From the NCBI RefSeq assembly GCF_002572525.1, contig NZ_PDBS01000001.1, positions 3,968,001 through 4,032,000 of the forward strand: a stretch of 64,000 nucleotides of DNA. Direction: 5' to 3'. Below, in pieces: positions 47,208 through 63,413 of this stretch. Numbering within the stretch: the stretch's first letter is position 1; every line of letters starts with the position of its first letter. A program made the translations under genes and the position numbers. The DNA is from Natrinema sp. CBA1119. GTDB taxonomy: Archaea; Halobacteriota; Halobacteria; Halobacteriales; Natrialbaceae. The notes under the pieces are model-generated. The model was given only the letters and a program-made list of their open reading frames with translations, was not told the origin of the DNA and searched no databases.

Positions 47208-47290
47208 CCGGTACGCGGCCGTCGCGGGCGACGATGATCAGTACGCGGCCATCGCGGGCGGCGGCGACCAGTACGTGACCGTCGCGTGCA
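47202..47290 (+). repeat. Three degenerate 30-33 base tandem repeats
   Basis: GGTACGCGGCCGTCGCGGGC, CAGTACGCGGCCATCGCGGGC-like and CAGTACGTGACCGTCGCGTGC units follow one another just after the DUF3054 stop. In one frame they read [28 protein letters not shown]. That frame has no start of its own and joins the copper ATPase frame, so it is probably untranslated. Confidence 0.5.
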
Positions 47291-47478
47291 GTAGTGTCAG
47301 GGACGCGGCTGCGGTGGCGACGGTGGCCGGTGGTCGCGGAACGTACTGCCGATCCGGACTCGAGTCGGCTGGCCACCTGCTCCACCCCCTTACGGCTGCG
47401 AGCCGATCGGCCGACCGCGGTCGGACCGAACTCGTTCGGCGTCACGGCTACCCAGCGGCCGCGAGTATCGCTCGTGAG

Positions 47479-49929
47479 ATGAGTTCCTGCGCGCTCTGCG
47501 GGCTCCCGACGCCCGAGCCGCCGGTGACCGGGGACGACGTCGCCGGCCGCTTTTGCTGTCGCGGTTGCCTCGAGGTGAGCGCGACGCTCGCTGAAGTCGA
47601 CAACATGGACGGCTCGAACGTCGTGGACCGGGCGGCCGAGTCCGCCGAACGAGCGGTTCCCGACGGGTGTGCGGAGGCGTTCCTCGCGATCGAAGGGATG
47701 CACTGTTCGACCTGCGAGGGGTTCGTCTCCCTGCTGGGCGAACGCGAGGAAGGGATCCTGACAGTCGAAGCCAGCTACGCGACCGACACTGTCCGCGTCG
47801 TCTACGACCCCGATCGGCTGCTCGAGGCCGACCTTCCCGACGCGCTTTCGGGGTACGGCTACGAGGCGCGGTTCCGCGACGACGACGCGGGCGGCGGGCG
47901 GACTCGAGCCGACGAGGAGATCGCGCAGCGACTGCTGATCGGCGGGTTCCTGACGATGCTCGTCATGCCGTGGTACCTGTTCTACCTCTACCCGAGCTAC
48001 GTCGGAATCGAGACGGGGATCCTCTCGGTCGACGCGACGTCGCCGGTCGGGATCTACCTCCCGATGGCGATGATCGGCCTGTTGGCGGGCGGCGTCCTGT
48101 TCTATACCGGCTATCCCGTGTTGCGCGGCGCGTACGTCAGCCTCCGGGTCGGCCAGCCGAATATGGATCTGCTGATCGCCATCGCGGCGACCGCGGCGTA
48201 CGGCTACAGCACGGTCGCGCTGGCGACGGGGAGCACGCACCTCTACTACGACGTGACCGTCGCCGTGATCATGGTCGTCACGCTCGGGACCTACTACGAG
48301 CGTCGGATCAAGCGTCGGGCGACGGACCTGCTCACCGACGTGACCGCCGCACGGGTTCGCGACGCGACTCGCCGAACGACGGCGGGAGTTGAGACGGTCC
48401 CGGTCGATCGGCTCGAGGCCGGTGACGAGGTCCTCGTCAAACCCGGCGAGCGGATCCCCGTCGACGGGACGGTCGTCGAGGGGACGGCGGCGGTCGACGA
48501 GTCCGTCCTCACCGGCGAGTCCCTGCCGGTCACGAAGCGGCCGGGGGAGCGGGTCGTCGGCGGAGCGATCGTCACCGATAGCGCGCTCGTCCTCGAAGTG
48601 GGTGAGGGGGCCCAGAGCACGCTCGATCGCATCGCGACGCTCATGTGGGAGATCCAGAGTTCGACGCCGGGCGTCCAGCGGCTGGCCGACCGGCTCGCGA
48701 CGATCTTCGTCCCGCTCGTCCTGACGCTCGCGGTCGTCCTCACGGGCTGGCGGCTCGCGACGGGGACGCCGGTCAGCAATGCAGTTCTCACGGGGCTGAC
48801 GGTACTGGTCGTCTCCTGTCCGTGCGCGATGGGGCTGGCGACGCCGCTGGCGGTCGCCTCCGGGTTGCGCGACGCCCTCGAGCGGGGAATCGTGGTCGCG
48901 AACCCGACCCTGTTCGAGTCGGCGTCGGCCGCCGAGACGGTCGTCTTCGACAAGACCGGCACGCTGACGGCCGGCGAGATGGCCGTTCAGGAGGTCCGCG
49001 GCGACTCCGACGCGCTCGAGCGCGCTGCGGCCGTCGAACGCCTGTCGGAGCACCCCGCGGCTGAGGCCATCGTGGCCCACGCGGAGAGCGGGCAGTCGGA
49101 CCGGACCGAAAGCGGCGCGACCGTCGCGTCCGATGGCGGCCACCTCGAGCGCTCAGAAGGGGACGAGACGATCGAGACCGAGCCCGCGCTCGAGCCGACC
49201 GACTTCGAGCGCCACCCCGGCGAAGGCGTGAGCGCGACCGTCGACGGCGAGCGATGCGTCGTCGGGACGCCCGCGCTCGTCGAGCGACTGATCGGGCCAG
49301 TTCCCGACGACCTCGAGCGGGCGATCGACGAGGGTCGAGCGGCCGGTCGGCTCCCGGCCGTCGTGGGCTACGACGGGCGAGCGCGGGCCGTCATCGTCGT
49401 CGGCGACCGGACGCGAACCGAGTGGCGCGACGTCCTCGAGTCGTTTGCAGACCGCGAGGTGGTCGTACTGACGGGTGACGACGAGGCCGCGACCAAGACG
49501 TTTCGCGACCACCCGGCGGTCGATCGCGTCTTCGCGGGCGTTCCGCCCGACGGGAAAGTCGAGACCGTCCGACGACTCTCCCGCGAGGGGGTGACGGCGA
49601 TGGTCGGCGACGGTACGAACGACGCCCCCGCGCTGGCCGCGGCGGACGTCGGTATCGCGCTCGGCCACGGAACGGCCCGCGCGACGGACGCCGCCGATGC
49701 GATCGTCACCTCGAGCGACCTCCGCGGCGTCCGCGCCGTGTTCAATCTCGCGAGCGGCACTCGCCGTCGCATTCGCGAGAACGTCGCCTGGGCGCTGTTG
49801 TACAACGCCGTGGCGATCCCGCTGGCCGCGGCCGGACTGCTCAATCCGCTGTTCGCCGCGGTTGCGATGGCCGCGAGCAGCACCATCGTCGTCGTCAACT
49901 CCTCGCGGGCGGTGCTGGACGATCGATGA
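47479..49929 (+). CDS. Copper-type (CPx) P1B ATPase
   Basis: Heavy-metal translocating ATPase of 816 residues. N-terminal Cys-rich domain ([12 protein letters not shown]...[10 protein letters not shown]), then an HMA domain with MHCSTCEGF, transmembrane part, actuator TGES in [14 protein letters not shown] in [19 protein letters not shown], phosphorylation [13 protein letters not shown] locus SEHPAAEA and the hinge [23 protein letters not shown] with these neighbours points to Cu(I) transport. ATG 47479 starts MSSCALCG; the longer frame covers repeats. It could export copper or feed the NirK/CuA proteins encoded downstream. Confidence 0.92.
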
Positions 49930-50494: not shown

Positions 50495-51220
50495 CTACGC
50501 CTCCGGAACCGACGACACGTACCGGCGGTACCGACGCAGGGTCTCGCCGTCCTCGTCGCGCAGTTCGACGACGAACTCCGCCTGGCCGACGGTCTCCTCG
50601 AGGTCGGCCTCGCGGATCGTGAACTCGTAGGGCGGTTCCTCGACGCGCTCGACCTCGCGGTCGCCGCTGGTCACGACGACGCTATCGATCCCCGTCGAGT
50701 CCGAGAGCTGGCAGTCGATCTCGCCCCCGGACTTGCTACACGCCAGATCCGGGTTGACATCCGTCCCCGAATCGTTCCCTAACGGTGACTGGAAGTCGAG
50801 TACCATGGGCGAGATGGGTGCGGTCCCGAGTATCAGGACGATAGTCAGGAAGATCGAGATGTTGATCTTCGAGCCGTTTCGAGCGATCGTCCGGACGATC
50901 GGGCGTTCGGCGGTCCGCCGGAGCCGGATCACGAGCGGCACGATCACGGCGTGGGTCAGCGGCCCCCAGAGGATGAGGACGAAGCCGTAGGCCCGAACGT
51001 ACTCGAGGATCGTCCACTCGATCCCGTAGGAGAGGACCAGGCTGCTCGCCGACCAGCAGAAAAAGCCGAAGAAGAGCAGCCCGGCGCTCTTGAACAGCCG
51101 CCAGATCGGCGTGTTGGCGTAGTAGACGCTCAGGAGGTCCCGCCAGGCCTGGACGAGGACTCGCCTGACGAACGATAGCGGCGATGCGGTCGCGTCGGCG
51201 TCAGCATCGGAGTGTGTCAT
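50495..51220 (-). CDS. Membrane protein of unknown function at the end of the oxidase block
   Basis: Protein of 241 residues with three membrane helices (SAGLLFFGFFCWSASSLVLSYGI, YGFVLILWGPLTHAVIVPLVI, KINISIFLTIVLILGTAPISP) and an outer C-terminal beta domain (IDSVVVTSGDREVERVEEPPYEFTI). Two Cys lie in DLACSKSGGEIDCQL. It follows subunit I by 37 bases on the same strand, so it may be an accessory subunit or assembly factor; that is an inference. Confidence 0.7.
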   Translation of the reverse strand: MTHSDADADATASPLSFVRRVLVQAWRDLLSVYYANTPIWRLFKSAGLLFFGFFCWSASSLVLSYGIEWTILEYVRAYGFVLILWGPLTHAVIVPLVIRLRRTAERPIVRTIARNGSKINISIFLTIVLILGTAPISPMVLDFQSPLGNDSGTDVNPDLACSKSGGEIDCQLSDSTGIDSVVVTSGDREVERVEEPPYEFTIREADLEETVGQAEFVVELRDEDGETLRRYRRYVSSVPEA

Positions 51221-51257: not shown

Positions 51258-53003
51258 TCAGGCGCCGATCGACCAGAGTTGGGTCAGCAGATACCAGTTC
51301 AGTAGGTAGGTGATGACGAAGGCACCGAGGAAGACCAGACAGAGGACGAACGTACCGCGCATCTCGTAGGCATGGACGGGATCGTCGGGGTCCTGTGCCA
51401 TGCCCAGCCCGCCGTCCGCGACGAGGTCGGCGTTATCGTCGGCGCTCTCGACGCGGTCGCCGAAGACCAGCGAACCGACTGCCACGAGAACGAAGAGGAT
51501 GCCACCCGCGATGGCGAGCAGAGCGAAGATCCCGAAGACGGCGAACAGGGGTGCTGCAGCCGAGAGGCTGAACTCGGTGCCGGGGATGTTTTCGACTACC
51601 TCGGCAGTCCGGCGAGGAACGCCGTAGAGAATGCCGACGTACATCATCATCAACACGGCGACGCCCATCGCGGCCGAGTAGAAGAACGGCTGGATCGACG
51701 CGAGCCGCTCGGAGACGTACTGGCGCATGAACATCGTTCGGATCACGAAGAAGATCAGGCCCATGAACGCGACCGTGGTCCCGAGGACGACCGTCGCGTG
51801 GAAGTGACCGACCGTCGCGAACGTGTTGTGCCAGGTCATGTTGAGTTGCAGTTGGCCCATCATAACCCCCGTAATCCCGCCGAGGAAGCCGAACAGAATG
51901 ATCGAGAAGATCGTCGAGGAGAACACCGGATCCCGCCAGGGAGCCGACGTCAACCAGCCGAACAGCCCGCCGCCCTTCCCGCGCTTTCGGCGGCCGGCCT
52001 CGATTCCCGCCGGAATGGCGAACGCGTGGATCAGACTCGCGAACGTGGCTCCGTAGAACGCGTAGGACGTGTTCCAGAGACGCCAGCCGGTCGACACTGC
52101 GGGATCCGACAGCAGGTGATGTGCCGCCCCGAGGTTGATGAAGAACAGATAGAGGATGAAGGCGGTCCGCGAGACCTTCTCGCTGACGACCTCCGCGCCG
52201 GCGACGACGTGGGTCAGGAAGTACCAGACCGCGATCATCGCGACGAGATTGATCTGCTGGGTTCCGTGGCCGATGATCCAGTACATCTGACGGTACCAGG
52301 CGGCGTCCCACCACTGGATGTACTCGAGTCGCCACAGCAGGGTGGGAACGAACGCGAACAGGCCGCCGACGAGCGCCTCGACGGCGATGATTCCCGTAAC
52401 GAAGGCGGCGAAGCTGACGAGCGGGAGCGTCTTCCGCGGATTTTCGCGCTTCTCGTACCACATCGTCGCGAAGAACGGCAGCGCGGCGACGACGGTGCCC
52501 AGGATGAAGACGATCGCACCGGCGTAGAACAGCGGCGAGATCGGCATCGGGACGTAGGCTGTCAACAGCGGCGCTTCGTTGGGCGCCTCGGTGGTCCAGA
52601 TCGCGTAGTTGACCAGCAGTGCGCCCGCGACCATGACGAGCCAGCCGGCCTTCGCAACGCTCGTGAACGGCAGCCGGCGGCCGAGAACCATCGGCCCGCC
52701 CACGTAGAGGATCGCGATCTCCATGAACACCATCCAGAAGATGAGCAGGTTCCACGCGTGCAGGCTGAGGTGCGTGTAGAAATCGCCCGGATCGAGCAGC
52801 CCGATCACTTCCCAGCGTGTCATCGCGACGGTGATGGCGAAGATGCCGCCGTACAGCAGGGCGACGACCGCCGTGAGTCCGAACAGTTTGACGAGGTTTT
52901 CGACGGACCGGTGGATCTCGAGGCCCGTCACCGAGCAGGTTCGGAAGCCGTCGTCGCGGTACTCGTTGTCGAACAGGCCGAGAACGTCTAGTTTGTGTGC
53001 CAT
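51258..53003 (-). CDS. Heme-copper oxidase superfamily subunit I, candidate CuA-type nitric oxide reductase
   Basis: Membrane protein of 581 residues with about 14 helices. Low-spin heme His in FYTHLSLHAWNLL, CuB ligands H246 (IIGHGTQQIN) and H295-H296 (LGAAHHLLSDP), and heme ligands H400 and H402 (VGHFHATVV). In B-type oxygen reductases the helix-VI motif is H-P-x-V-Y, with Tyr cross-linked to His and needed for O2 splitting. Here it is H-G-T-Q-Q, with Gln250 at the Tyr place. Loss of that Tyr marks NO reductases in this superfamily. Databases may label it cytochrome oxidase. Subunit II lies five bases upstream. ATG 53003 is used. Confidence 0.85.
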   Translation of the reverse strand: MAHKLDVLGLFDNEYRDDGFRTCSVTGLEIHRSVENLVKLFGLTAVVALLYGGIFAITVAMTRWEVIGLLDPGDFYTHLSLHAWNLLIFWMVFMEIAILYVGGPMVLGRRLPFTSVAKAGWLVMVAGALLVNYAIWTTEAPNEAPLLTAYVPMPISPLFYAGAIVFILGTVVAALPFFATMWYEKRENPRKTLPLVSFAAFVTGIIAVEALVGGLFAFVPTLLWRLEYIQWWDAAWYRQMYWIIGHGTQQINLVAMIAVWYFLTHVVAGAEVVSEKVSRTAFILYLFFINLGAAHHLLSDPAVSTGWRLWNTSYAFYGATFASLIHAFAIPAGIEAGRRKRGKGGGLFGWLTSAPWRDPVFSSTIFSIILFGFLGGITGVMMGQLQLNMTWHNTFATVGHFHATVVLGTTVAFMGLIFFVIRTMFMRQYVSERLASIQPFFYSAAMGVAVLMMMYVGILYGVPRRTAEVVENIPGTEFSLSAAAPLFAVFGIFALLAIAGGILFVLVAVGSLVFGDRVESADDNADLVADGGLGMAQDPDDPVHAYEMRGTFVLCLVFLGAFVITYLLNWYLLTQLWSIGA

Positions 53004-53008
53004 CGATA

Positions 53009-53548
53009 TCACTCCTCCACGATGATCGTGCCGTGCATGGTCCTGTGCCCCTGCCCGCAGAACTCGTTACAGATGATGTGGTAGGTGCCCGGCTCGTCGA
53101 ACGTCATCGGGACGACCCACTCGTAGCCGGGCAGCACCTGCAGGTTGATCTGCTTGCTGAGCGCGTCCTCCGGCCGCAGCGAGAAGCCGTGCTGGACGTC
53201 CATGGAGCTGAGGTGAATGTCGTACTCCGTCCCCGCCTCGAGGATGACCGGTGCGCCGTCCCACTGGAAGCGCATCGCATTGAGATAGACGTCCGTCTCG
53301 GGCGGGACGAGGCCGTCCTCGGTCTCGGTCCCGTCTTCCTTGTACGCGCTCATCTTCTCGCGGTACGCCTCGGCGTCAATGCGGAACGTTTCGCCGATCG
53401 GGTTCTGATCGCCGACGCGCGTCCAGGTGCTCATCCACCCGAAGAGGATGAGCGACCAGGCGGCGCCCAGCCCGAGCCAGATCGACTCGCGTCTGTTGAC
53501 CGGCTGATCCCACCAGTTGCCGTCCGGGGGTTTGAGTGGTGACGTCAT
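53009..53548 (-). CDS. Heme-copper oxidase subunit II with CuA site
   Basis: Protein of 179 residues. One N-terminal helix (SIWLGLGAAWSLILFGWMS) anchors a cupredoxin domain outside the membrane. The CuA ligands are complete: H120 in DVQHGFSLR and C160, E162, C164, H168, M171 in CNEFCGQGHRTM. It would accept electrons from a copper protein or cytochrome and pass them to subunit I. Only one transmembrane helix, as in ba3-type oxidases. Four bases from the small-subunit gene. Confidence 0.92.
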   Translation of the reverse strand: MTSPLKPPDGNWWDQPVNRRESIWLGLGAAWSLILFGWMSTWTRVGDQNPIGETFRIDAEAYREKMSAYKEDGTETEDGLVPPETDVYLNAMRFQWDGAPVILEAGTEYDIHLSSMDVQHGFSLRPEDALSKQINLQVLPGYEWVVPMTFDEPGTYHIICNEFCGQGHRTMHGTIIVEE

Positions 53549-53552
53549 CGAA

Positions 53553-53702
53553 TCACCCTAGTGGAACGGAAAAGACGTCGACCCAGCCCCACGCGACGTA
53601 CGAAAGCGCGAAGAACACGAGCGCCGCCGCCGCGAGTAGCCAGATGCGGTTGTACAGTCGTTGCATCATCGGTTCCGATTCGCTCGAGTGTGACCCAGTC
53701 AT
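53553..53702 (-). CDS. Small single-helix subunit of the oxidase-like complex (CbaD-like)
   Basis: Protein of 49 residues: polar start MTGSHSSESEPMMQRLYN, one helix IWLLAAAALVFFALSYVAWGW, short tail. Its position directly before subunit II resembles the small subunit of ba3-type oxidases. ATG 53702 is chosen; the longer frame to 53945 covers promoter-like AT-rich DNA. Confidence 0.7.
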   Translation of the reverse strand: MTGSHSSESEPMMQRLYNRIWLLAAAALVFFALSYVAWGWVDVFSVPLG

Positions 53703-53951
53703 TTCCTTTCGGTCGAAATTCGTTATGAAAGCTGCATAGCCGTTCTCCCGCACATATTCCCCTTCCTCTCTGTCAAAAGAGTTGCAATTACGACCAGTCA
53801 CATTCTCGCCCCAGGATATTGGAATTAATACGGGGCAGAATCGAGGGAAAGAGCGACCAACGGTACGATGAGACGTGAAGACGAGGTGTGAAAAGGAGGA
53901 CGAATGGCAGTTCTCCGGGTGGGCCGTCCGCGGCGGGATACCCACTCTCGC
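53703..53951. other. Intergenic region between nirK and the oxidase genes
   Basis: About 250 bases with AT-rich parts (GTATTAATTCCAATATCC on the minus strand, about 53812-53829) that probably include a promoter for the three oxidase genes. No gene visible. Confidence 0.4.
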
Positions 53952-55049
53952 TCACGGATCCTCGTCGTAGACGTCGGGGTTTTCCTCGCCCTGAACGTTG
54001 ACGACGCCGAGTGCGCCGCGGTGGACGACCCGCGAGAGGGCGTGGTCGACGAGCTTGACCGGACCGGGAACGGGGAACTCCATCTCAGCGGCGGTGGTGG
54101 TGCCCGGCGGGACGGGAGTCGTCTCGACGTTGTTGGCGGGTTCGCTCAGCAGGTCGCCGCTGCGGTAGAGGTTGCTCCAGACGTTGCCGATCGGGTGGAA
54201 CGAGCTCAGCAGATTCGGGCCGCCGTTGGCGAAGTAGACCCGGGCGGTCTCGCCGGTGTTGGCCTGCATGGGGCCGACGCCGTCGGCGGTGAAGCCGTAG
54301 GCCTGACCGTTGAAGACGACGTAGGTGGGCTCTTCGCGCATCATCGCGTCGTGATCGAACGCGTGGTGGCCTTCCTCGCCGACCTCGCCGGCGGTGTAGA
54401 TCTCGTGCTGGCCGAGGTAGAACTCGTTGTCGACCTCGGGCAGGCCGTCCTCGGGTTCGACGAGGATCGAGCCGAACATGCCGCTACTGATGTGGTAGTC
54501 CATGGCCGGGACCGCACAGTGGTAGATGAACACGCCGGGATACTCCGCGCGGAACTTGATCTGGGTCGGGTCGTCGTCGGGGGCGATGGTCGTCGCGTCG
54601 GCGCCGCCTCCAGGGCCGTAGACCGCGTGGAAGTCGACGTTGTGCATCGCCGCGTTCATGTCTTCGGGAACGTCGAAGGTGAGGTTAACCGTGTCACCCT
54701 GACGGACCCGGATCATTGGTCCCGGCACCTGCCCCTCAAACGTCATATAGTCGAAGGTGACGCCGGGTTCGATTTCGGCGGTGACCTTCTGCGTTCGAAG
54801 CGTCACGTCGTGCGTGCGGGGCTCGTTCCAGTCGACCGGTGCCGGAACGTCCGTGGGATCCCGCGCGATCTGGTCGATGTCGACCGATTTTGCCGCTTCT
54901 AGTCCTTCCTCTTCTTCCTCGCCGCCGTTCTGGTCGCTGTTCGCTTCGGTGCCCGATTCGTCACCGCCAAGGCAGCCGGCGACTGCGACCGCTCCGGCTG
55001 CACCCATCGCCTGCAGGAACCGTCGTCGGTGAGCGTTGTGTTGGGTCAT
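53952..55049 (-). CDS. nirK: NirK: copper-containing nitrite reductase
   Basis: Reduces nitrite to NO outside the cell membrane. 365 residues: Tat-type start HRRRFLQAMGAAG with lipobox GC26, acidic linker, then two cupredoxin domains. Type 1 copper ligands H136, C178, H186, M191; type 2 ligands H141, H177 and H336 (LVDHALSR); catalytic Asp139 (NVDFHA) and His285 (SSFHPIG). All are visible, so the enzyme should be active. It stands between ctaB and the NOR-like complex in the same orientation. Confidence 0.95.
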   Translation of the reverse strand: MTQHNAHRRRFLQAMGAAGAVAVAGCLGGDESGTEANSDQNGGEEEEEGLEAAKSVDIDQIARDPTDVPAPVDWNEPRTHDVTLRTQKVTAEIEPGVTFDYMTFEGQVPGPMIRVRQGDTVNLTFDVPEDMNAAMHNVDFHAVYGPGGGADATTIAPDDDPTQIKFRAEYPGVFIYHCAVPAMDYHISSGMFGSILVEPEDGLPEVDNEFYLGQHEIYTAGEVGEEGHHAFDHDAMMREEPTYVVFNGQAYGFTADGVGPMQANTGETARVYFANGGPNLLSSFHPIGNVWSNLYRSGDLLSEPANNVETTPVPPGTTTAAEMEFPVPGPVKLVDHALSRVVHRGALGVVNVQGEENPDVYDEDP

Positions 55050-55208: not shown

Positions 55209-56657
55209 TCAACCGGCGATCACGAGCGTCTCGAGGACGATCGCGAGAAGGATCGCGCCGAGGTAGTAGTTCGAGACGTAAAACGAGCGGAGCGCGACCG
55301 CGTCGGTCGGGCGACGATACTGGCGGATCACCGACCGGAGGAAGACGGCACCGAGCGAGACGGACGCGAGCGCGTAGACCCAGCCGAGTCCCGCCAGCCA
55401 GCCGAGGGCGCTCGCAGCTAGCAGCGTCGCACCCAGATAGAGCGCGATGTGTCGACGCGCGGCGAGCACGCCTTCGGTAACGGGAAACATCGGGAAACCA
55501 CCACGTGCGTAATCGTCGCGATAGGCGATCGCGAGGCTGTAGAAGTGTGCCGGCGTCCACAGGAAGATCACCGCGGCGAGGGCAATCGCGGGCGGTCCGA
55601 CGGATCCCGTGACGGCCGCCCAGCCGATGATCGCGGGAAGCGCGCCCGCGCCGCCGCCGAGAACCGTGTTCCAGACGGTGTTGGGCTTCAGGACAACCGT
55701 GTAGAGGGCGGCGTAGTAGCCGATGGCGGCGAGCGTCAGCGCCGCGGCCAGCACGTTGACCCACGCGACGAGAACGGCCATCGATGCGCTCGTGAGGACG
55801 ATGCCAAACGCGAGAGCGTTCCGCGCCGGGACGAGATCGTGAACCAGCGGCCGGTCGGCCGTCCGGTTCATCCGCCGATCGCGGTCGCGCTCGTACACGT
55901 GATTGAACGTCCCGCTCGCGCCGATCGCGAGGACGCCACCGGCGAGCGTCGCGAGCGCGACCGACGGCTCGAGCGGCGTCCCGGTCAGCGTCGCCAGCCC
56001 CATCCCGGCCAGTGCGACGAGACAGAGCAACCACATCAGCCGCGGTTTGGTGAGCGTCAGATACGCACCAGCCGTTCGACGGAAGCGTGCAATTCGCCCG
56101 CTCGGGATGTCGGTCTCTGCCGCGATATTCGCGTCTTCACCGGCAGCGACGTCGCTCGCTTCTGCGACTGATCGCGCTGGCTCGACGGCGTCCGGCTGCG
56201 CCGATCGATCGCTGGCACCGTCCTCGAGGGTCCGAACGAGCGCGACGATGAGGCAGGCGAAGATGACCATCGCGAGGACGAGGTGAAGGCCGGACGCCGC
56301 GGCGGGGCCGCCGACGACGAGCGCGGCACCGAGAGCGACCTGGATCGGAAAGAGGACGATCGCACAGCCGACGAGCCAGGTCACGCGGCGCCCGATATCG
56401 ACCTGCCGGGCGGCCAGCCCGGACGCGACGACGAGGAGGCCGGTCACGAGGGCCGCCACGCGGTGAGCCCAGAATAGGAGGAGGTCGCCTGAGAGCGAGC
56501 CGAGCGACGAATCGGTCGCACAGCCCGGCCAGGTGGGACAGGACGCCGCGCCGTCGGTCGCCGAAACGGCAGTCCCGAGCGCGACGAGGATGTAGGCCGC
56601 GATCGTCGTCGCTGCGAGCAAGTCCGCAAATCGTCGTTGGTTGAGATCGTCAATCAT
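55209..56657 (-). CDS. ctaB: Heme o synthase (protoheme IX farnesyltransferase) with N-terminal CtaA-like half
   Basis: Protein of 482 residues. The N-terminal 140 residues hold four helices resembling half of CtaA/Cox15 (ALGTAVSATDGAASCPTWPGCATD, WAHRVAALVTGLLV). A polar linker follows, then a UbiA-type domain from about residue 195: LTKPRLMWLLCL, the Asp motif NHVYERDRDRRMNRTADRPL and TPAHFYSLAIAYRDDY. It adds farnesyl to heme b, giving heme o for heme-copper enzymes. ATG 56657 is chosen. Its position argues that the neighbouring complex uses heme o or a. Confidence 0.92.
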   Translation of the reverse strand: MIDDLNQRRFADLLAATTIAAYILVALGTAVSATDGAASCPTWPGCATDSSLGSLSGDLLLFWAHRVAALVTGLLVVASGLAARQVDIGRRVTWLVGCAIVLFPIQVALGAALVVGGPAAASGLHLVLAMVIFACLIVALVRTLEDGASDRSAQPDAVEPARSVAEASDVAAGEDANIAAETDIPSGRIARFRRTAGAYLTLTKPRLMWLLCLVALAGMGLATLTGTPLEPSVALATLAGGVLAIGASGTFNHVYERDRDRRMNRTADRPLVHDLVPARNALAFGIVLTSASMAVLVAWVNVLAAALTLAAIGYYAALYTVVLKPNTVWNTVLGGGAGALPAIIGWAAVTGSVGPPAIALAAVIFLWTPAHFYSLAIAYRDDYARGGFPMFPVTEGVLAARRHIALYLGATLLAASALGWLAGLGWVYALASVSLGAVFLRSVIRQYRRPTDAVALRSFYVSNYYLGAILLAIVLETLVIAG

Positions 56658-56720
56658 CTGGTATCGGTAGCATCGTCTCGTCGGTGGTCGTGGGGGTAGC
56701 CCCACGAAGTCGGTTTCCGG

Positions 56721-57014
56721 TTACGCGTCGTCTCTCGTCTCGAGCGCCCCGTTCGTCCGCCAGATGACGGTCACGACGTCGTCATCGCGTTCGACTGGTT
56801 CGTAGGTGTAGCCGCGGTCGTCCAGTTTCGGAAACAGAAACTGGGGGACGCGGTCGTTTCGCTGGACCAGAACGGTCTCCGCGGGGAGCTCGGCGAGCGT
56901 CTCGAGGGTCCGTTTCAGTGGCTCCGGGGGACCGAGCGAGCGTACGTCGATCGTTTCCCGCGGTCGGTCGGACGGTGCGTCCGTGCCGTCGACGATGGCT
57001 GCTATCGTGGACAT
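56721..57014 (-). CDS. DUF2249 domain protein 1
   Basis: Protein of 97 residues. The domain reads ETIDVRSLGPPEPLKRTLETLAELPAETVLVQRNDRVPQFLFPKLDDRGYTY, the sulfur-carrier-TusA-like fold pattern of DUF2249. These proteins often lie with nitrite/NO reductase genes; their job is not established. Last of three in a row, 63 bases before ctaB. Confidence 0.82.
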   Translation of the reverse strand: MSTIAAIVDGTDAPSDRPRETIDVRSLGPPEPLKRTLETLAELPAETVLVQRNDRVPQFLFPKLDDRGYTYEPVERDDDVVTVIWRTNGALETRDDA

Positions 57015-57053: not shown

Positions 57054-57299
57054 TCAGGCCTCCAGCTTCGGGAATCGGGCGACGAACTCGTCGGGGGCAT
57101 GTTGCTCGACCTCGTAGCCGTCAGCGTCGAAGCTCTCGACTTCGGCCTGAAACTCGTAGAACAGCGGCTTGGGCTCGTGATCGTTGACGATCGTGAGCGT
57201 CTCGCCCGGCTCGAGGGCCTCGAACTCGTCGTGGATGGTCGGGTGGCGGTTCACCGGTTGAATGTCTCTGACATCGAGTCGCGTCATGTACTGGTGCAT
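57054..57299 (-). CDS. DUF2249 domain protein 2
   Basis: Protein of 81 residues: TRLDVRDIQPVNRHPTIHDEFEALEPGETLTIVNDHEPKPLFYEF, a clear DUF2249. ATG 57299 or 57287 is likely; the longer frame to 57377 would run through a CGAAC-N2-GTTCG palindrome at 57328-57339, better read as an operator. Confidence 0.82.
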   Translation of the reverse strand: MHQYMTRLDVRDIQPVNRHPTIHDEFEALEPGETLTIVNDHEPKPLFYEFQAEVESFDADGYEVEQHAPDEFVARFPKLEA

Positions 57300-57327
57300 C
57301 GGAACGGCTGCCGGATGGTAATTCGTG

Positions 57328-57339
57328 CGAACACGTTCG
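57328..57339. promoter_or_regulatory. CGAAC-AC-GTTCG palindrome before DUF2249 gene 2
   Basis: CGAACACGTTCG, a 12-base palindrome 29 bases before ATG 57299. Same type as the boxes at 57672-57766. Resembles the anaerobic-respiration promoter motif linked to NarO-type regulators in Haloferax, from memory. Confidence 0.5.
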
Positions 57340-57404
57340 GGATGCCGGAGCGCTCGTGAATCATCACTAGGTCTCACACGGTCGACGACACGGTTCGGGC
57401 GGTG

Positions 57405-57632
57405 TTACGCGTGTTCGATACGCACGTGCCAGACGCCGTCCTCGCGTCGCTCGCTCTCGTGAGCGAATCCGCGATCGTCGAGTTCCTCGTAGAGCGGGAC
57501 CGGTTCGAACGGCACGATCAGTCGTAACTGACCGCCGCGTTCGAGCGACTCGAGTGCGGTAACGATGTCGTCGAACGGCGGTCCGTCGATCTCACGGACG
57601 TCGAGCGTCCGTTCTGTTGATTCGATCGTCAT
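57405..57632 (-). CDS. DUF2249 domain protein 3
   Basis: Protein of 75 residues: RTLDVREIDGPPFDDIVTALESLERGGQLRLIVPFEPVPLYEELDDRGFAHE. ATG 57632 is chosen; the longer frame to 57818 enters the regulatory region. First gene of the minus-strand respiratory block and divergent from the regulator gene. Confidence 0.82.
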   Translation of the reverse strand: MTIESTERTLDVREIDGPPFDDIVTALESLERGGQLRLIVPFEPVPLYEELDDRGFAHESERREDGVWHVRIEHA

Positions 57633-57671
57633 CGGTCCGTCGTTCGGTCCGCGGCGGGTTGGCCGTTCGTC

Positions 57672-57766
57672 CGAACGTGTTCGCGGCAGCCGATCTTCCC
57701 GGTGCGCGGGAATCAGCCGAACATATTCGTCACTGCCAGTATATAGCTCCGAACAGAACACGTTCG
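57672..57766. promoter_or_regulatory. Divergent promoter region with three CGAAC-N2-GTTCG-like boxes
   Basis: Boxes: CGAACGTGTTCG (57672-57683), CGAACATATTCG (57718-57729) and AGAACACGTTCG (57755-57766). A TATA-like GTATATA (57739-57745) sits 23-29 bases before the regulator's ATG, between two boxes. The arrangement suggests shared control of the regulator and the minus-strand block, perhaps autoregulation. Confidence 0.55.
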
Positions 57767-57767
57767 T

Positions 57768-58445
57768 ATGGCCCACGCAACCCTCACGCTCACGATGCCC
57801 GAGTCGATCTGGATCCAACAGGTTTCGACGGACTTTCCCGAGTCGAACTTTCGCGTCCTCGCGGCCGTTCCCGGCTCAGACACCGGCTTCGCCCTCGTTA
57901 GAATCGCCGGTTCGGCGGTTCCGGACGTGGTCGAAGCCATGGAGGACCACCCGCAGATCACCGAACTTTCCCTCGCCCAGTGGAGCGATGACGAGGCGAC
58001 GGTCCACTTCGAGACCACCGCACCGCTCCTGTTGTTCTCCTCTCGAGAATCGGGGATGCCGATCGAACTGCCGGTCGAAATCCAGGACGGCGAGGCGACG
58101 ATCGACGTCACCGGCTCCCGGGAGCGATTGGCCGAACTCGCCGAACAACTCGAGAACTTCGGCCTCCAGTACCGGATCGAGCACGTCCGCGAGCGGCTCC
58201 ACGAGAGCCAGCTCCTCTCGGACCGCCAGCTCGAGGTGATCGTCGCCGCCGTCGAAGCGGGCTACTACGACACCCCACGGCGCAGTTCACTGACGGAGCT
58301 AGCTGATCGTCTCACGATTGCCAAATCCACGTGTAGCGAGACGCTCCATCGGGCGGAAGAAGCGATTGTCAAGCGGTTCGTCGAAGATGTCCCCAGCGTC
58401 TCCGACGGAGAAGAACCGCTCGAAGAAACGGCCGCAAGTACGTAA
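57768..58445 (+). CDS. HTH_10 (bacterio-opsin activator-type) transcriptional regulator
   Basis: Protein of 225 residues. The N-terminal 150 residues form an alpha/beta sensor-like domain (TLTLTMPESIWIQQVSTDFPES). The C-terminal HTH_10 domain reads LLSDRQLEVIVAAVEAGYYDTPRRSSLTELADRLTIAKSTCSETLHRAEEAIVKRF. It lacks the Cys cluster that NarO carries before its HTH; one Cys lies in the HTH. This is closer to DmsR-like proteins. Being divergent from the nirK block and surrounded by shared palindromes, it is the likely regulator, by inference. Confidence 0.85.
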   Translation: MAHATLTLTMPESIWIQQVSTDFPESNFRVLAAVPGSDTGFALVRIAGSAVPDVVEAMEDHPQITELSLAQWSDDEATVHFETTAPLLLFSSRESGMPIELPVEIQDGEATIDVTGSRERLAELAEQLENFGLQYRIEHVRERLHESQLLSDRQLEVIVAAVEAGYYDTPRRSSLTELADRLTIAKSTCSETLHRAEEAIVKRFVEDVPSVSDGEEPLEETAAST

Positions 58446-58703
58446 TTCGATCCGCTGACGTCGCGCTCCGGTTTGGGACACCTCTCTGCCGTCCGCGTCG
58501 GTAGAGTGGTGATCCGACGAAAATCGACGGCCGAATTTTGCAGTACCGGGGAATCGGTTCGAGTGTGAGACTCGCGTCGCGCTGGGTTCCCGCCCTCGAA
58601 CTCCGGGAGGAAACAATGAAATCCACCCACCTGACGCTTCGGGGCTTCCGCCACTGAAGCCCATCTGTCGAGTTGGGTCGATATCCGATTCCGACGGCGA
58701 TTG

Positions 58704-58731
58704 ACTTATATGGGCGAACATGATCGGTTCG
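58704..58731 (+). promoter_or_regulatory. AT-rich element and CGAAC-N7-GTTCG inverted repeat before the Fe-S operon
   Basis: CTTATATGG at 58704-58712 is followed by CGAACATGATCGGTTCG at 58715-58731, a wider-spaced relative of the boxes near 57700. It lies 150 bases before the ATG at 58881. Confidence 0.35.
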
Positions 58732-58880: not shown

Positions 58881-60527
58881 ATGAGCACGGACGATGAATC
58901 ATTCCACCCCCTCGGAGACGAGTGGGAAGGCGAACTCGAGACGATGCTCGACGATACCGAGTACGACAGCCAACTCGGTATGGACATGGCCCGCGACGCG
59001 ATGCGGGTCACCAAGGGCGAACTCTCCGAAGCCGACTTCCACGAGAAGTATCACGAGGATGTGATGGAGGAGTTCGGCGAGGACGAGCGACCGACCAAGG
59101 AGGCCTACGAGGCGGCCCAAGAGGAGGCCAAGGGGACGTTCTCCCGAATGGTCGATAAGTTCGACGGCGACGGCGAGGAAACCCGTCGCGAGACCATGAA
59201 GAAGATGGGCGTCGGCGCGACGGCCGTCGGCCTCGGTGCGTTCGGTACCGTCAGCGACGGTCCCGAGCACAGCGTGGCCGAAGGCCCGCGCCAAGAGACC
59301 ACCGAGGAGAGCGACACCCAGTGGGGGATGACGATCGACCTCGAGCGGTGTGACGGCTGTCTCTCCTGTATGACCGCCTGTTCCGAGGAGAACGATCTCG
59401 ACCAGGGCGTCAACTGGATGTACGTCATGGCCTGGGAGGACGACAACCACCACGGCCAAGAGGGCTCCGAGTACGACGTCTACACCGACTTCAACATGGG
59501 GAGCGACTTCAACATGCTCGTGCGGCCGTGCCAGCACTGCACGGACGCTCCCTGCGAGAAGGTCTGCCCGACAACGGCGCGTCACACGCGCGACAAGGAC
59601 GGTCTCGTGTTGACCGACTACGACGTTTGTATCGGCTGCCGGTACTGTCAGGTCGCCTGCCCCTACGGCGTCAACTACTTCCAGTGGGACGAACCCGATA
59701 CGGCCTACGAGGACATCGACGGCCTCGAGGATCCCGACAACCCCGACCAGATCACGCACGCCGAGTACGATCACGGCGAGCGCTGGGTCGACAGTCGCGC
59801 GCCTCGCGGGACGATGAGCAAGTGTACGATGTGTCCGTCCATGCAGGACGGCAAACAGGGAGAAGAGCAGGTCGGGACGACCGCCTGCGAGTCGGCCTGT
59901 CCGCCGGGCGCGATCCAGTTCGGCAACGTCAAAGACGAGAAGAGCGATCCATCCCAGCACCGCGAGCACCCAGTCAAGAGTCGCGCGGTCATTCACCTGA
60001 CGAACGGCACCGAAAGCAGTAAATCCGCTCCGTCGGCAGACCAGATCGACAGCGCCCTCAGCGAGGGCGACGACCTCGAGACTGCGATCGATAATATCGA
60101 GGGGCTCACCATGGACATTCTCGCGGTCATGAAGTCGATCGAGATGGTCAGCGAAGGCACCGAGCCCAGCGACGACGAGAACAACTCCATCCTCTCGGCC
60201 GAACAGGATATCCTCTCCGCAGTCGAGGCCTTCCAGCAGTACGTCGACCTCGACACCGAAGAGGCGTATACCGAACTGGGACTCGGCGACGGCAGCGAAC
60301 AGCAGGCTCGGTTCCGACTCGAGCAATACACGGGCGACCCGAGTTCGTTCCAACTGCTCGAGGACATCGGAACGAACCCGAACATCACCTACCTCGGCCA
60401 ACAGCCCGGACCGGAGGCCCACCAGGTCGACGGTCCGACCGCCTACGAGGACGTCGACCTGCTCGACGAGCGCCAGGAGGACCTCGACGAAGGCACGGTC
60501 GGGCGGATTGACGGGGTGTCCTTATGA
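58881..60527 (+). CDS. PsrB/DmsB-like protein with four [4Fe-4S] clusters and a long N-terminal domain
   Basis: Electron-transfer protein of 548 residues. Residues 1-95 are an acidic helical domain. A twin-Arg-like RRETMKKMGVGATAVGLGAFG lies at about 101-121, unusually far from the N-terminus. Cysteine groups: CDGCLSCMTAC (near 156), CQHCTDAPCEKVCP (near 216), CIGCRYCQVACP (near 248) and CTMC with CESACP (312-340). A 170-residue C-terminal helical tail follows. Overlaps the NrfD gene by four bases. No molybdopterin subunit is encoded nearby. Confidence 0.9.
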   Translation: MSTDDESFHPLGDEWEGELETMLDDTEYDSQLGMDMARDAMRVTKGELSEADFHEKYHEDVMEEFGEDERPTKEAYEAAQEEAKGTFSRMVDKFDGDGEETRRETMKKMGVGATAVGLGAFGTVSDGPEHSVAEGPRQETTEESDTQWGMTIDLERCDGCLSCMTACSEENDLDQGVNWMYVMAWEDDNHHGQEGSEYDVYTDFNMGSDFNMLVRPCQHCTDAPCEKVCPTTARHTRDKDGLVLTDYDVCIGCRYCQVACPYGVNYFQWDEPDTAYEDIDGLEDPDNPDQITHAEYDHGERWVDSRAPRGTMSKCTMCPSMQDGKQGEEQVGTTACESACPPGAIQFGNVKDEKSDPSQHREHPVKSRAVIHLTNGTESSKSAPSADQIDSALSEGDDLETAIDNIEGLTMDILAVMKSIEMVSEGTEPSDDENNSILSAEQDILSAVEAFQQYVDLDTEEAYTELGLGDGSEQQARFRLEQYTGDPSSFQLLEDIGTNPNITYLGQQPGPEAHQVDGPTAYEDVDLLDERQEDLDEGTVGRIDGVSL

Positions 60528-61876
60528 GTACGAAGGAGCCAACGGAAGCGGACATCCTTCGTCCGATCAACACGCTCACGAAGAAGTACTTCATCCTGTA
60601 CGGTGCCGCGACACTGGGTCTCGTCGCCTTCCTCATCGCCTGGGCCTACCAGCTTCAGCAGGGCCTTATCGTCACCGGCCTCGGCGACTGGGGGAGCGGT
60701 GGCGGCTCGACCTGGGGACTGTACATCGGCGCGTTCATCTGGTGGGTCGGTGTCGCTCACGGCGGCATCATCCTCTCGGCCGCCGTCCGCCTGCTCAATA
60801 TGGACCGGTACATGCCGGTCGCTCGACTCGCGGAGATGACGACGATCGGCGGTCTCTCGGCCGCCGGCTTCTACATCCTGGTCCACATGGGACGTCCGGA
60901 CCGGATGGTGACGAGCGTCATTGGTCACTACCACATCACGGTCAACAATTCGCCGCTCGTGTGGGACGTGACCGTCATCACGGCCTACTTCGTGCTGTCT
61001 GCGACCTACCTCGGACTGACGTTGCGCTATGACGTTAACCGCCTGCGTGACGATCTGCCGGACAAGTTCGAACCGGTCTACAAGATACTGACTATCGGCT
61101 ACAGCGAGAAAGAAGACAAGGTCATCGATCGGATGGTCTGGTGGCTCGCCGCCGCAGTCATCATCATGGCCCCCCTCTTGCTCCACGGCGGCGTGATTCC
61201 GTGGCTGTTCGCACTCCTTCCGGCGATGCCCGGCTGGACCGGTGCGATTCAGGGGCCGATGTTCCTCAGTATCGCGCTGATGTCGGCGATCAGCGGCATC
61301 ATGATCATCTCCTACGCGTTCCGCCGAGCCTACGACTGGGATCATATCATCACCGACGACATCTTCCGCGGACTGCTCCTGTGGCTCGGATTCTTCACCC
61401 TGCTGTTCCTGTGGTTCCAGCTGCAGACGATCATCAACGGCGTCTTCCTCGGACCGACCAACAAGGCGGTCGCGATCGAAGCGAAGATCGGCCATCCGGT
61501 CTACCAGGTTGCGATGACGATGATCTTCGGCACGCTCGTGTATATCTTCCTGCAGGGGATCCGTCCGGCCCTGTTCAGTAAGAAGCGAGCCCTCATCGCC
61601 AGCTGTATCATCCTCGCCGGGACCCTGACCGAGAAGATCCTGTTCGTCGTCGAGGGATTCCTGCACCCGACGTTCGACATCTACGCCAACACGCCCGGGA
61701 CCTACTTCCCGAGCCTCATCGAGTGGCTCTCGCTCGTCGGAACGACTGCGCTGGTTGCACTTTTATTCCTCAACCTCTCGAAGCTCGTTCCAGTGGTCGA
61801 ACTCCACGCGGTCGAACACCTGCGCGGCGACCACGCACACGATGACGAAGCGACCGAACCCGAGGTGGAAGCATGA
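60524..61876 (+). CDS. NrfD/PsrC family membrane subunit
   Basis: Membrane protein of 450 residues with about ten helices. Seen: GAFIWWVGVAHGGIILSAAVRLL, ILVHMGRPDRM, and VNNSPLVWDVTVITAYFVLSATY, typical of the larger NrfD/ActC/PsrC subfamily. Such subunits exchange electrons with menaquinol and dock an Fe-S protein. Coupled by four-base overlaps to both neighbours, so the three products form one complex. Confidence 0.9.
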   Translation: MSTKEPTEADILRPINTLTKKYFILYGAATLGLVAFLIAWAYQLQQGLIVTGLGDWGSGGGSTWGLYIGAFIWWVGVAHGGIILSAAVRLLNMDRYMPVARLAEMTTIGGLSAAGFYILVHMGRPDRMVTSVIGHYHITVNNSPLVWDVTVITAYFVLSATYLGLTLRYDVNRLRDDLPDKFEPVYKILTIGYSEKEDKVIDRMVWWLAAAVIIMAPLLLHGGVIPWLFALLPAMPGWTGAIQGPMFLSIALMSAISGIMIISYAFRRAYDWDHIITDDIFRGLLLWLGFFTLLFLWFQLQTIINGVFLGPTNKAVAIEAKIGHPVYQVAMTMIFGTLVYIFLQGIRPALFSKKRALIASCIILAGTLTEKILFVVEGFLHPTFDIYANTPGTYFPSLIEWLSLVGTTALVALLFLNLSKLVPVVELHAVEHLRGDHAHDDEATEPEVEA

Positions 61877-62184
61877 ACGCAGCACTGACAGCGATCCCAT
61901 CGGAACTCCTGTACCACGGCTACGACGGCACCGCCGGCTTCACCGGCTTCGCCAACGAGGGAACCTGGATCATCTTCGCGGTCATCCTGGTTCCGGTCTA
62001 CATCATGCTCGCGGCGTGGTTCCTCGGTGAACCCCGCGACACGAAGACCGGACTGCTCGGCGTGAGCTACCTCGTCGGACTGACGACATCGATGTGGGTC
62101 GGGATGTTCGTCCTGACCGTCCTGATCGGTATCGTCTTCTACGGCGGCCCGCCGGAGCCGATCAGCGGCGTCGGCCCGCCGTAA
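61873..62184 (+). CDS. Small membrane subunit of the Fe-S/NrfD module
   Basis: Protein of 103 residues with two helices: TWIIFAVILVPVYIMLAAWFLG and TTSMWVGMFVLTVLIGIVFYGG. It overlaps the NrfD gene by four bases. No family recognised; probably a small structural subunit. Confidence 0.75.
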   Translation: MNAALTAIPSELLYHGYDGTAGFTGFANEGTWIIFAVILVPVYIMLAAWFLGEPRDTKTGLLGVSYLVGLTTSMWVGMFVLTVLIGIVFYGGPPEPISGVGPP

Positions 62185-62321
62185 CCGTCGCCGTCTCACA
62201 ACGAACACCGATTTATTTTTCGCGACCGTCAACCCGTAAGCGGTGCCGTTCAGCAGTGATTCGGTCCCGAACCATCACACGTATCCCGTTCCACATCCTT
62301 CCAACGACTAACACAGCCACT

Positions 62322-63413
62322 ATGAGCATTACAGAACACGAACTCGAGATCAAACTCGAGGAGGTCGAAGATCCGGACATCGGCGAAGACATCGTCTCGC
62401 TCGGACTGGTCAACGACGTCGTTATCGACGACGAGACGGCCCGCATTTCGCTCGCGTTCAACGCGCCGTACGCTCCCTCCGAGATGGCGATCGGGAATCA
62501 GATCCGCGATGTCATCGAGGACGCCGGTCTCGAGCCCGACCTGCGGGCCCACGTCGGCGAGGAACACGGCTTCGACGACGAGGTCCTCCCGAACGTGCGC
62601 AACGTCATCGCCGTTTCCTCCGGCAAAGGCGGCGTTGGCAAGACGACGGTCGCGGCCAACCTGGCGGCCGGACTCGAGAAACGCGGTGCGATGGTCGGCC
62701 TGCTCGACGCCGACATTCACGGGCCGAACGTTCCGCAGATCCTCCCGCCTGAGAGCGACCCCGGCGTCACGCCCAACGAGGAAATCGTGCCACCACGCTC
62801 GGACGGTGTCCGCGTCATCAGTATGGGCATGATGATGGAAGACGACGACGACCCCGCAATCTTGCGCGGGCCAATGGTCAACAAGTTTATGATGAAATTC
62901 CTCGAGGGCGTCGAGTGGGGACGACTCGATTACCTCATCGTCGACCTCCCGCCGGGGACCGGCGACGCGACGCTGAACCTCTTGCAGTCGATGCCCGTGA
63001 CGGGCTCGGTCGTCGTCACGACGCCCCAGGAGATGGCGTTAGACGACACCCGAAAGGGGATTCAGATGTTCAACAAACACGACACGCCGGTGTTCGGCGT
63101 CGTCGAGAACATGAGCTCCTTCATCTGTCCGTCCTGTGGCGACCAGCACGGGCTGTTCGGGACCGGCGGTGCGGACACCATCGTCGACAAGTACGACGTT
63201 CCGCTGCTGGGCAAGATTCCGATCCACCCCGACTTCGGGGCCGACGGCAGCGAGGGGGCGCTCGTCAAGGACGACGACAGCGAGGTCCAACAGCACCTCG
63301 AGGACCTCGTCGGCGAGGTCGCCGACCGAATCGGCGAGGCCAACCGCCGTACGGTCTCGGAAAACATCACGCAGGAACCGGCGAACAAGCTACCGACCGA
63401 GACGAAAGACTGA
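62322..63413 (+). CDS. Mrp/NBP35-family Fe-S carrier ATPase (ApbC-like)
   Basis: P-loop ATPase of 363 residues that binds and transfers Fe-S clusters. An N-terminal DUF59/MIP18-like domain (IKLEEVEDPDIGEDIVSLGLVNDV) precedes the deviant Walker A in VSSGKGGVGKTTVAANLA. Also seen: LLDADIHGPNVPQIL, VDLPPGTGDATL and the cluster-binding Cys pair in FICPSCGDQHG. ATG 62322. It lies 137 bases after the Fe-S operon, suggesting supply of clusters, which is an inference. Confidence 0.93.
   Translation: MSITEHELEIKLEEVEDPDIGEDIVSLGLVNDVVIDDETARISLAFNAPYAPSEMAIGNQIRDVIEDAGLEPDLRAHVGEEHGFDDEVLPNVRNVIAVSSGKGGVGKTTVAANLAAGLEKRGAMVGLLDADIHGPNVPQILPPESDPGVTPNEEIVPPRSDGVRVISMGMMMEDDDDPAILRGPMVNKFMMKFLEGVEWGRLDYLIVDLPPGTGDATLNLLQSMPVTGSVVVTTPQEMALDDTRKGIQMFNKHDTPVFGVVENMSSFICPSCGDQHGLFGTGGADTIVDKYDVPLLGKIPIHPDFGADGSEGALVKDDDSEVQQHLEDLVGEVADRIGEANRRTVSENITQEPANKLPTETKD

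Follow-up and report, generated by a model that had tools for sequence, protein, structure and literature searches.

The window analysed here is a 64,000-nucleotide stretch of the genome of Natrinema sp. CBA1119 (contig NZ_PDBS01000001.1, positions 3,968,001 to 4,032,000). On its minus strand it carries the genes of a haem-copper enzyme that we assign to the eNOR family of nitric oxide (NO) reductases. In the order of transcription these are a CtaA-CtaB fusion, NirK, a gap of 250 nucleotides (nt), a 49-amino-acid (49-aa) open reading frame (ORF), subunit II, subunit I and a 241-aa protein (Table 1). The first-pass annotation, made from the letters alone, had described a CuA-containing NO reductase related to B-type oxidases and encoded beside NirK, with Gln in place of the cross-linked Tyr, and had left open which eNOR- or sNOR-like type it was; both the 49-aa ORF and the 241-aa protein had escaped it. 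Residues of subunit I are counted from the ATG at 53003, three codons inside the ORF that starts with GTG.

Table 1. Features of the eNOR locus and its surroundings in window coordinates (TM, transmembrane; Tat, twin-arginine translocation)
Feature	Position	Strand	Remarks
Heavy-metal/copper P-type ATPase	47275..49929	+	Likely copper supply; ORF as called probably begins too far upstream
241-aa eNOR-associated membrane protein	50495..51220	-	N-terminal TM helices, C-terminal beta domain, invariant C161/C170
eNOR subunit I, catalytic haem-copper subunit	51258..53012	-	GTG start overlaps subunit II stop; alternative ATG 53003
eNOR subunit II, one TM helix and cupredoxin domain, complete CuA site	53009..53548	-	E21 aligns with ba3 E15
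49-aa single-TM protein, proposed third subunit	53553..53702	-	4 nt upstream of subunit II; positional analogue of ba3 IIa
Promoter-motif variant GGAATATGTGCG	53749..53760	-	58 nt upstream of the 49-aa ORF; haloarchaeal denitrification motif is CGAAYATDKTYG
NirK, copper nitrite reductase, Tat-lipoprotein signal	53952..55049	-	TIGR02376
Haem O synthase (CtaB) fused to N-terminal CtaA-like half	55209..56705	-	Likely haem supply
Three DUF2249 genes	56721-57014, 57054-57377, 57405-57818	-	
HTH_10 (bacterio-opsin-activator-like) regulator	57768..58445	+	Exact denitrification motif upstream at 57718-57729

Active site and family of subunit I

Subunit I matched PF00115 at 175 bits. It retains the low-spin haem ligand H82 together with H246, H295-H296, H400 and H402, that is, the three predicted metal-B histidines, the two low-spin haem histidines and the proximal haem histidine; the latter five residues and the motif H246-G-T-Q-Q250 had been read and numbered correctly in the first-pass annotation. 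On helix VI, H-G-T-Q-Q-x-N stands where O2 reductases have H-P/A-x-V-Y, and Gln250 occupies the place of the cross-linked Tyr in the H-x-x-x-Y motif of B-type oxygen reductases. The window enzyme also lacks the traits of qNOR and cNOR, namely a helix VI Glu and either a quinol-type N-terminal domain or a NorC cytochrome c subunit. Among 53 eNORs, Q249, Q250, N252, Y261, S323 and H326 were invariant, whereas the same positions read V, Y, W, Y, S/T and T in all eight B-type references. Since Q249, Q250 and N252 never varied in the one group and V, Y and W never varied in the other, we do not regard the motif, which takes the diagnostic form H-G/S-x-Q-Q-x-N in 53/53 eNORs, as a product of chance. 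The helix VII position of the C-type Tyr was Ile or Leu in every eNOR, with no alternative Tyr there. Y285 (window 52147-52149), on the same helix, ten residues before His295 and one turn from the C-type position, is a Tyr in all 53 eNORs and Phe in all eight B-type references.

The tree that we built comprised 37 haem-copper subunits, including 17 eNORs, 8 B-type oxidases and A-type, C-type and cNOR/qNOR sequences, with sNOR, gNOR and CuANor outside the sample. The eNORs formed a single clade (support 100/100), sister to the B-type oxidases (100/98), not within the ba3 clade and well separated from the A, C and cNOR/qNOR branches. The first-pass annotation had proposed such a tree and had named a position inside the B-type oxidases, with a Tyr supplied by another helix, as evidence that would speak against its reading; the window enzyme fell in the separate eNOR clade, outside the O2-reducing B clade. 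Because of long branches, for which a warning was issued, and because the tree is unrooted, a derivation of eNOR from B-type enzymes is likely but unproven. For both subunits, the best solved relatives were those of T. thermophilus ba3, which was also the top fold match of an AlphaFold model of subunit I (mean pLDDT 74, pTM 0.77).

According to PMC8756737, eNORs are defined by a Gln that replaces the active-site Tyr and are known from Natronomonas, other Halobacteria, Chloroflexi and Proteobacteria; the diagnostic residue is Asn in sNOR, Asp in gNOR and Asn in Bacillus CuANor (Table A4 therein). Because of its Gln at this position and its placement in the eNOR clade, the window enzyme is, judged by its sequence, a member of the eNOR family, a known kind of NO reductase, and the type left open before can be named. 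The closest named relatives of its subunit I, at 94% identity, are those of N. salsiterrestre, N. ejinorense and N. altunense. Relatives from Rhodothermus metagenome-assembled genomes are 64% identical (Rhodothermus/Bacteroidota proteins 60-68%), and haloarchaeal eNORs adjoin Rhodothermota sequences in the tree. Murali and colleagues reportedly described NO reduction by an eNOR of Rhodothermus marinus in PNAS in 2024. The NirK of R. marinus SG0.5JP17-172 falls among archaeal NirKs (PMC4770552), and this placement and that of the eNORs are consistent with joint transfer.

Subunit II and the companion proteins

Subunit II has all six CuA ligands reported in the first-pass annotation (H120, C160, E162, C164, H168, M171), kept in at least 55 of 56 homologues, and a CuA subunit II lies directly beside subunit I in 52/52 eNOR loci. 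Residues were mapped on an alignment to T. thermophilus ba3. In the window subunit I, Q250 replaces Y237, I257 replaces Y244 and H326 replaces T312, while Y248 and S309 are retained as Y261 and S323; E15 of ba3 subunit II is kept as E21. In PMC8756737, one predicted K-type proton channel is listed for eNOR, and on the aligned residues a modified channel of this type appears plausible.

The 49-aa protein was found by tblastn in 50 of the 52 eNOR loci. Its gene holds the corresponding position at the loci of Defluviimonas, Thermomicrobium and Thermus plasmids, whose subunit I shares just 38-42% identity, and the pattern W-L-L-A...Y..W-G..D....P is kept from haloarchaea to Thermus (invariant or nearly so: P11, L22, L23, Y35, W38, G39, D42, P47). 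The ba3 genes of Thermus are arranged IIa-II-I; a like order is conserved in eNOR loci, and a small single-TM ORF also precedes subunit II of the ba3 oxidase encoded in the Natrinema genome itself. IIa is the one-helix third subunit of ba3 oxidase (PMC3141039). A PDB profile search with the 49-aa protein returned weak, unrelated matches and no sequence match to IIa; the case for the link is thus one of gene order and topology. By this analogy, we infer that the protein may be a third, IIa-like subunit.

The 241-aa protein was present at 49 of the 52 loci, including those of Bacteroidota and Rhodothermus (34-38% identity), and was not recognised at the eNOR loci of Thermus, Defluviimonas and Thermomicrobium. 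Behind its helical N-terminus the C-terminal part is beta-sandwich-like. Pfam and NCBIfam gave no match, and a fold search gave weak beta-sandwich matches, none at E <= 0.001. As far as the literature examined goes, both companion genes, the promoter motif at eNOR loci and the co-occurrence figures given below are new.

NirK, promoter motif and distribution

As had been annotated, nirK lies upstream in the same orientation; its product matched TIGR02376 at 378 bits (cut-off 296) and carries a Tat motif and a lipobox. The residues that we take to be the type-1 copper ligands (H136/C178/H186/M191) and type-2 ligands (H141/H177/H336) are present, as are D139/H285, and the enzyme is predicted to be catalytically complete. 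It is the sole NirK above the family cut-off in the 5.06-Mb genome. A second nirK-like gene (G000:C1:2097434-2098365) is interrupted, with two pieces in different frames that cover model positions 2-105 and 108-322. The same contig as the window encodes a canonical qNOR (G000:C1:1403969-1406284, L008) with H-M-W-V-E and a quinol-type N-terminal domain. The genome also holds five full-length A-type-like genes for oxidase subunit I, which read H-P-E-V-Y, as well as a single oxidase fragment and a single canonical ba3 oxidase (L006) with a normal H-A-V-V-Y; neither narG nor nosZ was found above family cut-offs. The predicted trait of the organism is reduction of nitrite to N2O.

The nirK, nor and nosZ promoters of Hfx. 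mediterranei have CGAAYATDKTYG in common, 66-79 nt upstream of the start codon (PMC10062603). We scanned 41 archaeal eNOR loci for this motif with at most one mismatch, using 300 draws of random pieces on the same loci as control. In 28 loci such a site preceded the 49-aa ORF at a distance of 35-126 nt, compared to a random mean of 1.0 and maximum of 5; a pattern refined post hoc on the same loci reached 36/41, a figure that is descriptive only. The variant GGAATATGTGCG, at -58 in the window, differs from the published motif by two mismatches and is common to close relatives. As controls within the genome, a one-mismatch site precedes the qNOR gene and none precedes ba3. Four further matches to the motif, each with no more than one mismatch, are clustered in 1.4 kb (57328-58726), near the DUF2249 genes, the HTH_10 regulator and a ferredoxin/NrfD operon.

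Among 391 haloarchaeal genomes, counting as eNOR those matches that were at least 63% identical, we found eNOR in 72, qNOR in 205 and NirK in 208. NirK was present in 68 of the 72 eNOR genomes versus 140 of the 319 without eNOR (Fisher P = 7e-17, a statistic that ignores kinship); within the genus Natrinema, the figures were 12/12 and 2/10 (P = 1.4e-4). Twenty-five genomes encode NirK and eNOR but no intact qNOR; for 19 of them the estimated completeness is 95% or more. A loose qNOR re-search in the 25 gave no trace in 21 and fragments only in 4. In two of these 4, the qNOR remnants lie directly beside an intact nirK (G215:C4:157939-159754, G327:C1:1291948-1293352), which suggests that qNOR was lost while eNOR was retained. 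Haloarchaeal surveys give qNor (NorZ) as the only NO reductase of the group (PMC8400030, PMC8301774); the 25 genomes contradict these statements.

With respect to neighbouring genes, the P-type ATPase gene follows just past the 241-aa gene, and the DUF2249 genes and HTH_10 regulator lie on the opposite flank. The CtaA-CtaB fusion is close to eNOR in 33 of 52 loci and the ATPase in 36 of 52. DUF2249 proteins are induced in Hfx. mediterranei under denitrification (PMC11218638). Further along, 58881-63413 is a quinone-linked oxidoreductase module with an Fe-S subunit (Ferredoxin_N domain), an NrfD-like membrane subunit and a ParA/NUBPL-type Fe-S carrier; the ferredoxin/NrfD operon at 58881-61876 has a Tat motif. 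An IS605 OrfB/TnpB-like gene lies at 31480-32739 on the minus strand.

Proposed function and alternative readings

We put at about 0.9 the probability that the locus encodes an eNOR-family NO reductase, most likely of three subunits (I, CuA-bearing II and the one-helix IIa-like protein), with genes for assembly and supply. It is like the described eNOR family (Hemp & Gennis 2008; PMC8756737) in its Gln for Tyr, its complete His ligands and its adjacent CuA subunit II. It shows no essential difference from that family and is another haloarchaeal copy; the 49-aa and 241-aa genes and the promoter motif do not figure in the sections of the description used here. The Ardenticatena maritima nirK-eNOR operon (PMC4653789) likewise encodes eNOR together with NirK, but it is bacterial (Chloroflexi). 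T. thermophilus ba3 (PDB 1EHK/1XME; PMC3141039) is alike in fold, in haem and CuA ligands, in a one-helix third subunit (proposed for eNOR) and in some K-channel residues, but differs by Tyr237 to Gln, Tyr244 to Ile/Val and Thr312 to His; in the fold alignment the two are about 24% identical. The qNOR (NorZ) of haloarchaea has the same predicted reaction, NO to N2O, but is a single subunit without CuA, with a quinol-type N-terminal domain and an active-site Glu, far from eNOR in the tree.

In the mechanism that we propose, NirK would reduce nitrite to NO outside the membrane, and an extracytoplasmic copper protein of the halocyanin type would probably donate electrons to CuA of subunit II. From there, electrons would pass via the low-spin haem to the haem/metal-B site of subunit I, where two NO would be coupled to give N2O and water. 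Gln250 stands in place of the Tyr that O2 reductases use as electron and proton donor for O-O splitting; its loss would end the O2-cleaving radical chemistry and leave a polar pocket that fits N-N coupling. The cytoplasm would probably supply the protons, via the modified K-type channel (E21 of subunit II, S323, Y261, H326), in which case NO reduction would be electrogenic.

Several observations weigh against this picture. In eNOR, Ile or Val takes the place of the ba3 K-path residue Tyr244, so that a K-like path is no more than a presumed route for protons. Between nirK and the eNOR operon lie 250 nt. The window nirK has no recognisable motif upstream, and nirK and eNOR may therefore not form one transcription unit here. 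NirK does stand next to the reductase in the window, as first noted, but this is no general trait: the position of nirK varies between relatives, and direct adjacency is not conserved even in close Natrinema relatives. By gene content, NO reduction in this genome is not a matter for eNOR alone. The earlier suggestion of a pathway without the usual cNor/qNor therefore holds at the locus and fails for the cell, and with qNOR on the same contig we rejected the idea of a denitrification locus in an organism lacking qNOR.

One alternative is an oxygen reductase of divergent B type, with the job of the cross-linked Tyr done by Gln or by a Tyr of another helix. In its favour are the fold and the haem and CuA ligands, which are those of ba3 oxidase, and the eNOR-specific Y285, which lies one turn off the C-type Tyr position. 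However, that exact position is Ile or Leu in 53/53, on which ground we rejected an O2 reductase whose Tyr is donated by a different helix; the eNOR clade stands apart from every B-type reference, the association with NirK and the denitrification promoter motif is strong, and the genome already holds A-type-like and ba3 oxidases. We consider such an oxidase highly improbable. Even less probable is another CuA-containing family (sNOR, gNOR or Bacillus CuANor). In these, too, the haem-copper subunit I has a cupredoxin subunit II as its partner (PMC8756737), but the Asn, Asp and Asn listed there contrast with Gln in 53/53, including the 60-68% identical Rhodothermus/Bacteroidota proteins; the separation from these families is by residue, not by tree.

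A different alternative is compatible with eNOR identity: the enzyme might reduce NO mainly for detoxification, with respiration carried by qNOR in this organism. The gene set of NirK, eNOR and qNOR, with neither narG nor nosZ detected at the thresholds applied, fits this, as does an eNOR of Thermus plasmids (41% identical) that has an Rrf2-family regulator and a DUF542 protein as neighbours. Against it, energy conservation is suggested by the CuA input and the K-like channel, and eNOR is the sole detected NO reductase in many NirK-bearing haloarchaea; we regard detoxification as possible but rather unlikely. The Thermus thermophilus plasmid eNORs (L116, L117) also neighbour a multicopper oxidase and are annotated as cbb3-type oxidases.

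Tentatively, and at somewhat less than even odds, we extend the eNOR reading to a wider one. The family would be a three-subunit, energy-conserving NO reductase, with the IIa-like peptide and, in the haloarchaeal/Rhodothermota branch, the 241-aa partner. It would belong to the haloarchaeal denitrification regulon and be the sole NO reductase of a sizeable NirK-bearing haloarchaeal group that a qNOR-only survey scores as lacking one. Since 72 of 391 genomes carry eNOR, 25 of them with NirK and without intact qNOR, the N2O potential of hypersaline settings is under-called, and eNOR proteins are often annotated as cytochrome oxidases. In salt-loving archaea, group surveys have thus overlooked a predicted route to N2O via eNOR, and eNOR-bearing strains without qNOR offer a direct test bed for NO respiration by an oxidase-like enzyme.

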